Origin: Eubacterium sp. An11
GTDB lineage: Bacteria > Bacillota > Clostridia > Lachnospirales > Lachnospiraceae
NCBI RefSeq assembly: GCF_002161065.1
Contig: NZ_NFLV01000001.1
Coordinates: forward strand, 62,001 to 126,000
Direction: 5' to 3'
Length of the DNA: 64,000 nucleotides
Shown piece after piece: positions 47,402 through 62,166 of the stretch (position 1 is the stretch's first letter; the number at the start of each line of letters is the position of its first letter). The notes under the pieces are model-generated. The model saw only the letters and a program-made list of their open reading frames with translations, did no database searches and was not told where the DNA came from. A program made the position numbers and the translations under genes.

Positions 47402-47507
47402 GCAAATCCCGTCTCTTTATTCACACCCGGATAAATGCAAATCCCGTCTTCTTTATACACATCCGGATAAATGCAAATCCCGTCTCTTTATCCACATCCG
47501 GATAAAT
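47402..47507 (+). repeat. tandem direct repeat, three 35/36-bp units
   Basis: Three units (47402-47436, 47437-47472, 47473-47507) each begin GCAAATCCCGTCT and end CCGGATAAAT; a broken fourth begins at 47508. Each unit contains a dyad TTTATnC-ACAyCC-GGATAAA, perfect in unit three. No spacer differs, so it is not CRISPR. It ends about 110 bases before the HsdS-like gene. Confidence 0.85.
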
Positions 47508-47619
47508 GCAAAGCTCGGGGTTTCAAATCGTTTCAAATGGATTATCTTTTTTAGTATTGCCTGAATCAAAAAAAGAAGTTATAATGAAAAATAACATGTG
47601 AAAGAGGGGTAAATGTCAA

Positions 47620-48213
47620 GTGGAACTTCTGCTGGAACAAATCAGTCAGATTACCCATGGTGTGGTGCTTAACCGTATAAAGCCTAAGGTACAGAGCGAA
47701 GGAATCGAATATCCCATTCTATCCATCAGCCAGCTTCTGGATGAGGAGAACGGTATTACGGATTATGAGGTTCCTTCTGTTTTTGTGGACAAAAAAAAGG
47801 TGGATCACCTGAATCTGGCAAAGGAGCATAGTATCGTCATCGGTCTGACTTCCTTTCACCGGGCGGCGGTTCTGGAAAAACAGCATGAAGGAAAGATCAT
47901 CCCCTCCAATTTTGTGTCCATAGAATTTCGGGACGGAATCATGGACCCCTATTATTTTGCCTGGTATTTTAATGAACATCCGGAGATCAAGCTGCAGAGG
48001 GATATCGCCATACAGGGGAATTCCTCGGTGAAAGTGCTGTCCATCCATATGATCCGGCAGCTGATGATCGAGTGTCCGGATCTTGCCACACAGATGTCCA
48101 TCGGCAAGCTTTATTACTATCAGAAAAGAAAACAGCTGCTTCTCATGGAGAGAATGAAACTGGAAAAATCCGTTCTCTCCGAGGAGATGATGCAGTATCT
48201 GAAGAAACTTTGA
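47620..48213 (+). CDS. half-size HsdS-like specificity protein
   Basis: This 197-residue protein resembles one target-recognition domain plus coiled coil of type I restriction specificity subunits. The TRD part has YPILSISQLLDEENGI and the characteristic SIVIGLTS...KIIPSNFVSIEF, DPYYFAWYFNEHPEIK and QGNSSVKVLSIHMIRQLMI; the C-terminal coiled coil is DLATQMSIGKLYYYQKRKQL. Normal HsdS has two TRDs and about 400 residues, so this would need to dimerise. GTG start after GAGGGG at 47604-47609. It is followed 14 bases later by an HsdM-like gene; no HsdR is nearby. Confidence 0.8.
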   Translation: MELLLEQISQITHGVVLNRIKPKVQSEGIEYPILSISQLLDEENGITDYEVPSVFVDKKKVDHLNLAKEHSIVIGLTSFHRAAVLEKQHEGKIIPSNFVSIEFRDGIMDPYYFAWYFNEHPEIKLQRDIAIQGNSSVKVLSIHMIRQLMIECPDLATQMSIGKLYYYQKRKQLLLMERMKLEKSVLSEEMMQYLKKL

Positions 48214-48227
48214 GAAGGTGAGAAGGA

Positions 48228-49595
48228 ATGGATGAAAAACAATTGCATTATGAGTTCATGTCGATTCCAGGGGAGAGCCATCCCGGTCTGACCTTTGAGG
48301 AATACAGGGATACCTGTGTGTTTCTTTTATTTTATCATTATTTATGCCTGCGTTTTGATGAAAGGCTGGACGACGCTTACAAGCTGGATGCCATGGTCCG
48401 TATGGCGGTTCGGGGAAAGCTGCAGCTGCCGTCTTTTTTACGGTTTATTGAGGATGCCTCTCCGTTCATTCATCTGGCCGGCGGAGATTTTCAGCTGACA
48501 GATTTTTCTTTTTACAGGAATCTGACCAGAATGCAGTCCACAGAGAAACAGAAAAGTTACGCGAGATTTGTCCGAAAGATGATAAAAAAGATGAATCTCT
48601 GGGGCAGCGGGGAGCTGCTTCTGGAAAAATATCCGGTCTTTTTTGAAGAACTTCTGCAGGCGTTTGCAGGCATGAAAAAGGAGACTGCCATTTCCAGCGA
48701 GGTGCTGCGGCTGTACCGACTGTTTTTTTCAAAAGGCGATGAGAAGATCCGTCGTGTCTTTGTGCCGGAATTTACGTATGGAACCTTGTACCGCTGTATG
48801 TCGGAGAATCCTGCGAAGCTGGACATTTCCGGCTATGACAGTCATGAGGGATACCGGGAGATTTTGAAGATCCTGGGTTATATGAAAGGAGTGCCGGAAG
48901 GTTCACTCCATGTCTATGACCGGAGAGAATGGGAAGAGGAAAGCGAAGATACGGAGAAGTTTGACGCCATCGGCATTTACATGCCGGAAGGGGCGGAAGC
49001 AGGAAGCGTCATGGCAAAGAACAGGAAGTCCAGAAAATTGATGGAGAAGATTGGTCCCATTTCCAAGGGGGAGCTTCCGTTTCTCTTATCAGCGTTTTCC
49101 ATGTTGAAGGAAGACGGCGTGCTGGCGGCTATTCTGCCGGGAGCCCTTCTTTACCGGGAGGGCAAGGAATCCCAGCTGCGCCGGTTTCTTGTCAGCGAGA
49201 AAAATGGTCTTGATCTGGTGATGCTTCTGCCGGACCATATTTTACAGACGGCAGGCCAAAAAGAAGTGCTTTTGCTGCTGCGGAAGAATCGTCCGGGGAG
49301 AGATGTCATGTTTTTTGACTGTTCTGAGGTGGAAAGTTTTGAATCAGAACAGTTAAATGCCATTGGGATCGCCTGGAAGGAGCGGAAGACCGTTCCGGGG
49401 TTTTGCAGCCGGGTGGAGCAGATGGAACTGGAGCAGAATGACTTTAATCTGAACCTTCCCCGTTACATCGTGAAGACGGTGAAGGTGGCTAAAGTAGATA
49501 TTGACGCCCGGAAAAAGCGTATCGCGGAAATTGACAGGGAACTGGAAGAAATCGAAGAACGGATTGCCATGTATAAAAGAGATCTGGAATTGTAA
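48228..49595 (+). CDS. HsdM-like protein without recognisable methyltransferase motifs
   Basis: This 455-residue protein follows the HsdM plan: N-terminal helical domain (LTFEEYRDTCVFLLFYHYL), central Rossmann-like part, then FNLNLPRYIVKT near residue 406 and a C-terminal coiled coil (IAEIDRELEEIEERI) that in HsdM contacts HsdS. However the SAM motif expected after VFVPEFTYG (about residue 178) reads ISGYDSHEGY in place of DPACGSGG, and the catalytic NPPF position (about 249) reads IYMPEGAE. Downstream fold segments (LLSAFSMLKEDGVLAAILP, LLRKNRPGRDVMFFDCSE) are kept. It is therefore likely inactive as a methylase but still able to bind the HsdS-like partner. Alternatively it uses a different cofactor. 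Confidence 0.8.
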   Translation: MDEKQLHYEFMSIPGESHPGLTFEEYRDTCVFLLFYHYLCLRFDERLDDAYKLDAMVRMAVRGKLQLPSFLRFIEDASPFIHLAGGDFQLTDFSFYRNLTRMQSTEKQKSYARFVRKMIKKMNLWGSGELLLEKYPVFFEELLQAFAGMKKETAISSEVLRLYRLFFSKGDEKIRRVFVPEFTYGTLYRCMSENPAKLDISGYDSHEGYREILKILGYMKGVPEGSLHVYDRREWEEESEDTEKFDAIGIYMPEGAEAGSVMAKNRKSRKLMEKIGPISKGELPFLLSAFSMLKEDGVLAAILPGALLYREGKESQLRRFLVSEKNGLDLVMLLPDHILQTAGQKEVLLLLRKNRPGRDVMFFDCSEVESFESEQLNAIGIAWKERKTVPGFCSRVEQMELEQNDFNLNLPRYIVKTVKVAKVDIDARKKRIAEIDRELEEIEERIAMYKRDLEL

Positions 49596-59724: not shown

Positions 59725-62166
59725 ATGAATAGAGAATACAACGAATATGCGTCCCGTGCCCTGGAACGGGCAGAGGAAGACGCGAAAGCCTGCCGTCAGA
59801 AGTATGTGGGGACGGAGCATCTGGTGCTGGGACTGTTGTCCCAGGAAGATTCTCTGGCCGGCAGAGTGCTGGCGGAGAACGGCGTGTCTTATGAGACGTT
59901 TTTTAATGCAGTGCTGGGACAGTCAGCGGCGCTGGGAGATAATGAGAAGGCAGCGTTTTTCGGATACAGCCCGAAGGCGGAGGAGATTCTTGAAAACAGC
60001 GCGGCGGAGGCAGGAAGATTTCACGCGGAGAAGATTGGCAGTGAACATATTCTGCTTGCACTGCTCAAGGAGACGGACTGCATCGCCATCCGTCTTCTGC
60101 GGGGGCTCAACGTGAATCTTAAGCGCATTTATGTGGATGTGCTGGTGACTCTGGGCGTGGATGCTTCAAGAGCCCAGAAGGAATACCAGGCGTTGACCGG
60201 ACAGAAGAAGAGAAGACAGTCTTCCATGACGGAGGCTTTCTGCGAGGATCTGACCCAGAAGGCAAAGGATGGCAGCCTGGACCCGATCATAGGACGGAAG
60301 AAGGAACTGCAGAGGGTCATTCAGATCCTGAGCCGCAGGACCAAAAACAGTCCTTGTCTGGTGGGAGAGCCCGGCGTGGGCAAGACTGCCATTGTGGAAG
60401 GTCTGGCCCAGTGGATTGTCAGAGAAGAGGTTCCGGAGATGCTTAAGGGCAAGAAGGTCATGGTCCTTGATCTGCCGGGACTGATTGCGGGATCCAAATA
60501 CCGGGGTGAGTTCGAGGAAAGGATCAAAGGATTGCTCCAGGAAGTTATGGACAGGGGCGATATCCTGCTGTTTGTGGATGAGATTCATACCATGATCGGG
60601 GCAGGAGGAGCCGAGGGGGCTATCGATGCCTCCAATATCGTAAAGCCGTTTCTGGCCAGAGGCGAGCTGCAACTGATCGGAGCCACCACCAGCGAGGAAT
60701 ATCGCAAATATATAGAGAAGGACGCAGCCTTTGAGCGGAGATTCCAGCCGGTTACGGTGGAGGAGCCGACGGTGGAGGAGACCGTCGCCATCTTAAAAGG
60801 GCTGAAAGAAAAGTTTGAGAAACACCATCATGTGCGCTATACAGCAGCGGCCCTGGAGGCAGCGGCTGCTCTTTCCAAGAGATATATCAGCGACCGGTTT
60901 TTGCCGGACAAGGCTATCGACGTGATGGATGAGGCGGCTTCCAGAAAGAAGGTCGGTCTGTTTACCATGCCGGATGATTTAAAAAAGGCAGAGGAAGAGG
61001 CCAAAAAGTTCAGCCAGAGAAAAGAGGAAGCTCTCATGGAAGGAAATATCCGGAGGGCCAAGTTCAATAATACCAAACAGCAGAAGGCACAGGCAAAGGC
61101 CCAGGAACTGAAGGAACAGTGGGATCAGGCAAAAGAGTCCAGAAATATCACTGTTTCGGAAAATGATGTGGCTGCCGTGGTTTCTGACTGGACCAAGATC
61201 CCGGTGACCAGAATCAGCCAGACCGAGTCACAGAGACTTTTGTCTCTGGAAACAGAGCTGAAAAAGAGAGTCATCGGTCAGGATGAAGCGGTGAGTATTC
61301 TGGCAAAAGCCATCAAGAGAGGCCGTGTGGGTATGAAGGATCCGAAGCGTCCTATCGGTTCTTTCCTGTTCCTTGGACCGACCGGCGTGGGTAAGACAGA
61401 GCTTTCCAAGGCACTGGCAGAGGCGCTTTTTGGCGATGAGAATGCCATGATCCGGGTTGATATGTCCGAATATATGGAGAAGCACAGTGTGTCCAAGCTT
61501 ATCGGTTCTCCGCCAGGATACGTGGGATATGAAGAGGGCGGACAGCTCAGCGAGCAGGTGCGCAGACATCCGTATTCGGTCCTTTTGTTTGATGAGATTG
61601 AGAAAGCCCATGGCGACGTGTTTAACATTTTGCTGCAGGTTCTTGACGATGGTCAGATCACTGACTCCAACGGACGTAAGGTTGACTTCAAGAATACGGT
61701 GATCATCATGACGTCCAATGCGGGCGCGCAGCGGATCATGGCACCGAAGAATCTGGGATTTACCACCCATTCCGATGCCGGGCAGGATCATGAGAAGATG
61801 AAGAATCGTGTTATGGAAGAAGTCAAACAGATTTTCAAGCCGGAATTTCTCAACAGAATTGACGGTATTGTGGTCTTCCACACCCTGGAGAAAGAACAGC
61901 AGAAGAAGATCGTCCGTCTGCTGATCAAAGAGCTGGCAGACAGAGTGCAAAAGACACCGGGATTCACACTCTCCGTGACAGAAGAGGTGGAGGATTATAT
62001 TCTGGAAAAGGGATATAATCCGCAGTATGGCGCCAGACCGCTGCGCCGGACCATCCAGAATGAGCTGGAAGACTTCCTGGCTGATGAATTCCTGTTAGGA
62101 CATATCAAGGCCGGAAGCCAGGTCACTCTGGGAATGAAAGACGGTAAAGTAGTGATAGAAGGATAG
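59725..62166 (+). CDS. clpC: ATP-dependent Clp protease ATP-binding subunit ClpC
   Basis: This AAA+ unfoldase delivers proteins to ClpP. 813 residues. Two N-terminal Clp repeats ([30 protein letters not shown]), first AAA domain with Walker A GEPGVGKT near residue 215, a coiled middle segment ([14 protein letters not shown]...), second AAA domain with Walker A GPTGVGKT near 552, and a ClpB-type C-terminal small domain. The middle region fits a ClpC rather than ClpB length. No ctsR, mcsA or mcsB is next to it; a GntR gene takes that place. Confidence 0.93.

Follow-up and report, generated by a model that had tools for sequence, protein, structure and literature searches.

A fixed gene pair of half-HsdS and HsdM-like proteins without methyltransferase motifs, and its possible role as a DNA-binding complex

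Known half-HsdS systems and eroded relatives

The 'Type 1 1/2' methyltransferases M.AhdI, M.BsaBI and M.PshAI consist of a separate M subunit and a half-size S subunit, and M.AhdI is an M2S2 complex whose two identical recognition domains read GACN5GTC (excerpts of PMC3874165 and PMC2878638). Natural half-HsdS methyltransferases take the M2S2 form and read symmetric interrupted sites (PMC2878638, in excerpt). In type I enzymes, DNA is bound by the complex of S and M and by neither subunit alone (PMC3874165, in excerpt). Half-HsdS dimers have been likened to transcription factors that are homodimers, and HsdS bears a striking similarity to BmrR (PMC6158711, in excerpt).

We analyzed a window of 64,000 nucleotides, positions 62001 to 126000 of contig 1 in a 3.9-Mb genome that is Lachnospiraceae-like, as judged by its gene content and its relatives. 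On the + strand, the window carries two intact open frames, which are separated by a gap of 14 nt, as the preliminary description stated. The first, S', is a half-size S with one recognition domain and a helix, and the second, M', is a separate M protein, as in the 'Type 1 1/2' enzymes. However, those enzymes are active and are paired with a restriction enzyme, whereas M' lacks motifs I and IV and no nuclease is linked to it. Because the motifs are absent, adenine methylation of an interrupted palindrome, which also belongs to the 'Type 1 1/2' definition, is not to be expected of the pair. In the open-access PMC literature, we found no description of a half-HsdS whose partner is an HsdM without catalysis.

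A half-HsdS followed by an HsdM also occurs in intact restriction-modification (R-M) operons, both in genomes of the family (L119, L122, L123, L126) and in viral contigs (L160 to L163, L166, L168). The S. nepalensis plasmid pSNJS101 carries HsdR, half-HsdS, HsdM and HsdS in that order. Type I operons of this kind (L123, L126, viral L160-L168, pSNJS101) share the gene order of the pair and contain the closest sequence relatives of S' and M', but they keep DPxxGSG and mostly NPP(Y/F), and have a full-length HsdS and HsdR nearby. The pair itself has no linked HsdR, no motif-bearing HsdM and no two-domain HsdS, all of which define type I R-M. Two details of the operons were observed in passing. 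The HsdM at L126:5347-6906 has NMPF rather than NPPF at motif IV, in an apparently complete R-M operon, and a RhuM-family protein (PF13310; L123:6397-7401) lies between HsdM and HsdS in an intact operon of the half-HsdS type.

Four other eroded pairs were found in other genera of the family (L116:1619-3590, L117:4971-7005, L118:5500-7570 and L124:4315-6205). Like S'-M', each has a half-HsdS followed by an N6_Mtase-family protein, of 435 to 486 aa, without NPP(Y/F/W); they differ from S'-M' in sequence and in genomic place. Erosion is mainly at motif IV in L117 and L118, whose DFSCGxG resembles motif I, L116 keeps a partial motif I, and the L116 and L124 pairs lie directly beside an intact HsdM. 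In a phylogenetic tree, the M' proteins of the genus form one clade (100/100) with a stem of 4.0 changes per column, long enough to make rate estimates rough, and short branches after it. This shape reads as fast change followed by constraint. The tree sets L117, L118 and L124 apart from this clade, a hint that eroded pairs arose repeatedly, though the branches are long; the pairs may represent a route by which R-M systems are repeatedly domesticated, or else a heteromeric methyltransferase.

Architecture of S' and M' and the proposed complex

The features of the two genes are collected in Table 1. In PADLOC, where the two proteins were scanned, S' and M' matched only models of type I/II R-M subunits, plus a weak mad2 match. 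S' was matched by the type I specificity models, best by Specificity_I (E 1.2e-7); a Pfam search with S' gave nothing above the cut-off. The AlphaFold model of S' (mean pLDDT 83.6) has one recognition domain followed by a single helix of 42 residues, not the two domains of a type I HsdS. Foldseek matched this model to Esub1 (8vsq/8vsr, TMq 0.71-0.76), to BsaXI S and to type I HsdS chains. The best match, Esub1 (PDB 8vsq and 8vsr), is bound by the streptococcal prophage protein Prx; it is of half-HsdS size, like S', but its sequence is only distantly related.

Table 1. Positions in the window of the S' and M' genes, their parts and the putative promoter
Feature	Position	Strand	Basis
S', half-HsdS, 197 aa, GTG start	47620..48213	+	PADLOC, AlphaFold model, Foldseek, orthologues
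Single target-recognition domain of S', residues about 1-150	47620..48069	+	98/150 positions invariant (17 full-length sequences)
Long C-terminal helix of S', residues 155-196, expected dimerization/spacer coiled coil	48082..48207	+	One unbroken helix in model
M', HsdM-like protein without catalysis, 455 aa	48228..49595	+	N6_Mtase match, AlphaFold model, genus orthologues
Basic helix of M', residues 105-123, EKQKSYARFVRKMIKK	48540..48596	+	Charge conserved in 19 full-length M'
Former SAM motif I of M': VFVPEFTYG replaces DPxxGSG	48756..48782	+	Alignment with intact HsdMs
Former catalytic motif IV of M': FDAIGIYMPEG replaces FDxVxxNPP(Y/F)	48960..48992	+	Genus consensus FDaIgIFMPEG
NLNLPRY segment of M', common to HsdM	49446..49466	+	N407, L408, N409, P411, R412, Y413 invariant in 19 M'
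C-terminal helix of M', residues 425-452, HsdM element expected to pack on HsdS	49500..49583	+	Model
Putative sigma-70 promoter of the S'-M' operon, TTGCCT-17-TATAAT	47557..47585	+	Conservation in genus

M' matches Pfam N6_Mtase well above the cut-off (E 3e-20; 73.2 bits against 20.4), but over profile positions 77-304 of 311 only, and its score with the TIGR hsdM model (68.9 bits) is far under the cut-off of 242.75. In the AlphaFold model (mean pLDDT 82.6), a helical N-terminal domain is joined to a class I methyltransferase domain, and there is a helix at the C-terminus; the PDB structure closest to the model is HsdM 3lkd (TMq 0.73-0.74). By sequence and predicted fold, M' belongs to the HsdM fold family (N6_Mtase). 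The HsdS/HsdM descent claimed in the preliminary description is thus borne out by the profile matches and predicted folds, and the NLNLPRY segment (19 sequences) and C-terminal helix (model) are kept, as it had said. Its claim that the HsdM N-terminal domain is kept stands only in part, because the domain survives as a helical domain that is shortened and strongly changed in sequence. M' as a whole is about 60 to 80 residues shorter than the intact HsdMs compared.

The methyltransferase motifs are absent from every comparable orthologue. By pattern, motif I was found in 0 of 20 M' and in 27 of 28 HsdMs from viral contigs, and motif IV of the NPP(Y/F/W) type gave the same counts, 0/20 and 27/28. 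The M' fragment of G313 lacks both motifs by eye, so that all 21 motif-reaching M' of the genus are without them; the fragment of G317 ends short of the motif regions and is outside this count. At the motif I site, the genus consensus is VFlPeFqYG where intact HsdMs have VYDPTCGSG, and at the motif IV site NPPF is replaced by IFMPEG. Conservation extends to the replacement strings, in which P180, Y184, G185, D246, P253 and G255 are invariant in 19 M'. The early observation that M' has neither the SAM motif nor an NPPF-type motif therefore extends to the genus, where no homologue with intact motifs was found, and the loss is not local decay.

M' could in principle still be a methyltransferase that uses an unusual SAM site or one borrowed from another protein. 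The class I fold is kept in the predicted structure, and the NMPF of L126 indicates that motif IV tolerates some change. However, the SAM glycines and the catalytic Asn-Pro-Pro have been lost together, and this genome has no other HsdM-sized N6_Mtase match to serve as a partner: of the two others, one falls in a 1967-aa frame and the second scores below the cut-off. In G304, M' is the only N6_Mtase match. We consider continued methylation very unlikely.

M' has also acquired a basic helix. Its net charge is +5 to +6 in all 19 full-length M', whereas the aligned place in 28 intact HsdMs from viral contigs has a mean charge of 0.0 (range -2 to +3). Such a gain would be expected of a protein that traded catalysis for tighter nucleic-acid binding.

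The elements needed to build a complex, namely the S' helix and the NLNLPRY segment and C-terminal helix of M', are all kept, which favors domestication. We infer that S' dimerizes through its long helix and that one M' is attached to each S', so that the complex is S'2M'2, of the M.AhdI kind. The coiled coil would set the two identical recognition domains in inverted orientation to read an interrupted palindrome. M' would bind no SAM and methylate nothing, and would be kept as the structural arm of a DNA clamp, with its basic helix giving a firmer hold on DNA (or on RNA or a partner). The product may be a stable, sequence-specific DNA binder with a chromosomal role as a transcription regulator, nucleoid protein or DNA landmark. 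Retention of a dead M would be explained if S needs M for DNA binding, as in type I enzymes (PMC3874165, in excerpt). Because of the M.AhdI form, the interdependence of S and M, and the likeness of HsdS to BmrR, we regard a palindrome-reading, non-methylating S'2M'2 as the likeliest reading. That the pair is such a domesticated pseudo-'Type 1 1/2' complex, with a chromosomal or regulatory role and not a defensive one, we put at slightly better than an even chance.

The gene and protein comparisons suggest, then, that a former defense enzyme now serves as a protein that binds DNA sequence-specifically. Genes for R-M enzymes normally have a defensive role, a patchy distribution and fast sequence change, and METTL14 is an example of a pseudo-methyltransferase. 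If true, the pair would clearly exemplify the conversion of a restriction enzyme to a core DNA-binding factor, and would be a bacterial parallel to METTL14. With a recognition domain so nearly invariant, one target should hold for the whole genus.

Distribution and conservation of the pair

Among 24 genomes of the genus, M' is present in 22 (two of these are fragments under 200 or 300 aa) and S' in 20. Genomes missing either gene are incomplete assemblies (70 to 84% complete), and the 11 high-quality genomes all have both, so the pair is fixed. The orthologous loci include 'Eubacteriaceae bacterium CHKCI004' and 'Eubacterium sp. SUG709'. The searches outside the genus were samples in which at most a few candidates were scored per genome. 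No orthologue was found there among 299 family genomes or in one scan of genome contigs. A profile search of 397 family genomes returned two genus members at the 1e-224 level at least, then a match at 1e-35, and no further orthologue. In 391 class genomes searched at E 1e-30, the next best match (1e-42) was an intact HsdM, again with no orthologue.

Both genes are under purifying selection. The dN/dS ratio was 0.007 to 0.036 for S' (7 of 9 pairs estimable) and 0.045 to 0.13 for M' (7 of 10), values that are rough since several dS exceed 1.5. These ratios bear on whether the pair is a functionless R-M remnant in slow decay. Its catalytic motifs are lost and the locus has no HsdR or full-length HsdS, as such a remnant might. 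However, the frames are open in every orthologue, dN/dS is low, blocks of the sequences are invariant and the pair is fixed, which refutes decay as far as sequence allows, and we hold it to be extremely improbable. The preliminary description had likewise judged from the intact frames that this was not simple decay, and the 11 of 11 high-quality genomes with both genes agree with it.

The recognition domain of S' is the best-conserved part of the pair. Pairwise identity of S' has a median of 0.843 and a minimum of 0.777 among 17 full-length genus orthologues; a 51-residue fragment from G314 was left out of the comparisons. S' was about as conserved as FolD (medians 0.822 and 0.819 over 55 shared pairs; S' higher in 29). 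It was more conserved than TepA, FtsK and a solute-binding protein in all 55 pairs compared for each, and than phosphofructokinase in 15 of 15. Conservation at the level of FolD would be odd for an R-M recognition domain. However, the neighboring PNPase is more conserved than S' (0.877 vs 0.792 over 28 pairs; S' higher in 2). Given PNPase, the conservation of S' is not extreme, and this counts against domestication. For M', the median identity is 0.529 and the minimum 0.455 (19 sequences); it evolves faster than S', as a partly relaxed protein might, and this too counts against domestication.

A separate observation is that synonymous divergence was lower in S' than in M' in 5 of 6 genome pairs with both estimable, with codon conservation in S' peaking at codons 45 to 66 (match 0.67 vs 0.39 to 0.43 expected); this could reflect codon bias, recombination or a hidden element. 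Most of the signal at these codons came from one subclade, and an M' window scored as high. An antisense gene over S', suggested by long antisense frames in three genomes, was rejected as not significant: the longest antisense open stretch averaged 129 codons against 97 in codon-shuffled controls (95% point 163).

Another reading makes S'-M' a defense or anti-restriction device that occupies or senses invader sequence, or draws other type I systems away as a decoy. In its favor, the pair descends from R-M, its intact cousins belong to R-M operons found in viral contigs, in family genomes and on the staphylococcal plasmid, and two of the four other eroded pairs (L116, L124) lie beside an intact HsdM. 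Defense genes are usually patchy and R-M recognition domains usually variable, whereas this pair is fixed in the genus, in one place, with a recognition domain that is almost invariant. HSDR_N (PF04313), the HsdR family searched, had no match in this genome and was found in 10 of 24 genus genomes, including 7 of the 11 high-quality ones; the other four carry the pair nonetheless. It was never on the contig of the pair, save in the single-contig G301, about 230 kb away, so the earlier statement that no HsdR is linked to the pair holds here and, as judged by HSDR_N, among the 24 genomes.

No effector gene recurs beside the pair, and relatives of S' and M' were absent from the viral collections (four scans) and phages searched. 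Among plasmids, 12 records were returned, all under 60% identity, and the five listed stood at 24.9%. We therefore consider a defensive device unlikely, and fixation, genomic place and the absence of R-M partners argue for a chromosomal or regulatory role instead. Of the roles that had been proposed at the outset, the regulatory (or chromosomal) one fits best, and defense and anti-restriction are disfavored.

Genomic place and promoter region

The pair occupies a fixed place. By tblastn, M' is followed by a gene for FtsK/SpoIIIE in 18 of 19 loci, with TepA in between in 12. G310, G314, G315, G316 and G318 have no other called gene between M' and ftsK, which are separated by about 50 to 250 nt. 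The exception is G320, in which an M' fragment lies beside other genes and an S' fragment, on another contig, adjoins tepA-ftsK in the opposite direction. The upstream neighbor differs between subclades: in some relatives it is PNPase, in others a ferredoxin-type protein, and S' comes after pnp in many of them. All 10 of the family relatives compared have tepA, and S' and M' were undetectable in the 11 to 12 kb taken from each. This absence, together with the genus-wide place, makes it most likely that the pair entered once, before the genus radiated. The FtsK gene downstream counts in favor of domestication, but the adjacency may be accidental, since tepA-ftsK is an older unit of the family.

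These neighbors raise the question of whether M' is a scaffold for a task other than DNA binding (for example, on RNA or with the neighboring PNPase or FtsK), with S' kept as an adaptor. The new basic helix, the position of S' behind pnp and the FtsK gene after M' are consistent with this. However, the strongest conservation lies in the recognition domain, suggesting that S' itself has a fixed ligand, and the upstream neighbors vary between subclades. A scaffold role is doubtful.

A more specific possibility joins DNA binding to FtsK. Type I enzymes use their M2S complex to place the HsdR translocase on its target. With HsdR gone and an FtsK/SpoIIIE gene after M' in nearly all loci, S'2M'2 might be a DNA-bound landmark that marks or loads chromosomal sites for the FtsK motor, unlike the role of any R-M relative. 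We regard this version as a long shot.

Promoter-like sites near S' were no more frequent than expected by chance (3 found vs 3.0), and the promoter call has weight because a pattern is conserved upstream of S', not because of the site count. The pattern TTGCCGAA-N14-16-TATAAT occurred 14 times in the 24 genus genomes; 11 of these sites lie upstream of S'. A reversed control pattern occurred twice. The putative -35 box TTGCCGAA is odd, conserved and nearly private to the S'-M' operon. The exact pattern is absent from the genome of the window and from relatives with S' close behind pnp. In the former, neither TTGCCGAAN{9,11}GTTATAAT nor TTGCCGAAN{14,16}TATAAT had a match, since the window reads TTGCCTGAA.

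We also searched the 150 nt upstream of S' in 16 genomes for interrupted palindromes that might be an operator (shuffled maximum: mean 1.1, 95% 2). GTTAT-N8-ATAAC was the sole conserved one found, and this counts against a domesticated palindrome-reading complex. It was rejected as a conserved operator and counts just as a lead, because the 5 of the 16 genomes that have it are closely related and one of its arms is the -10 box. Not seen upstream of S' in 15 relatives, a 35-bp tandem repeat (3.1 copies, 93% matches) lies at 47402-47512 in the window, just upstream of the S' promoter.
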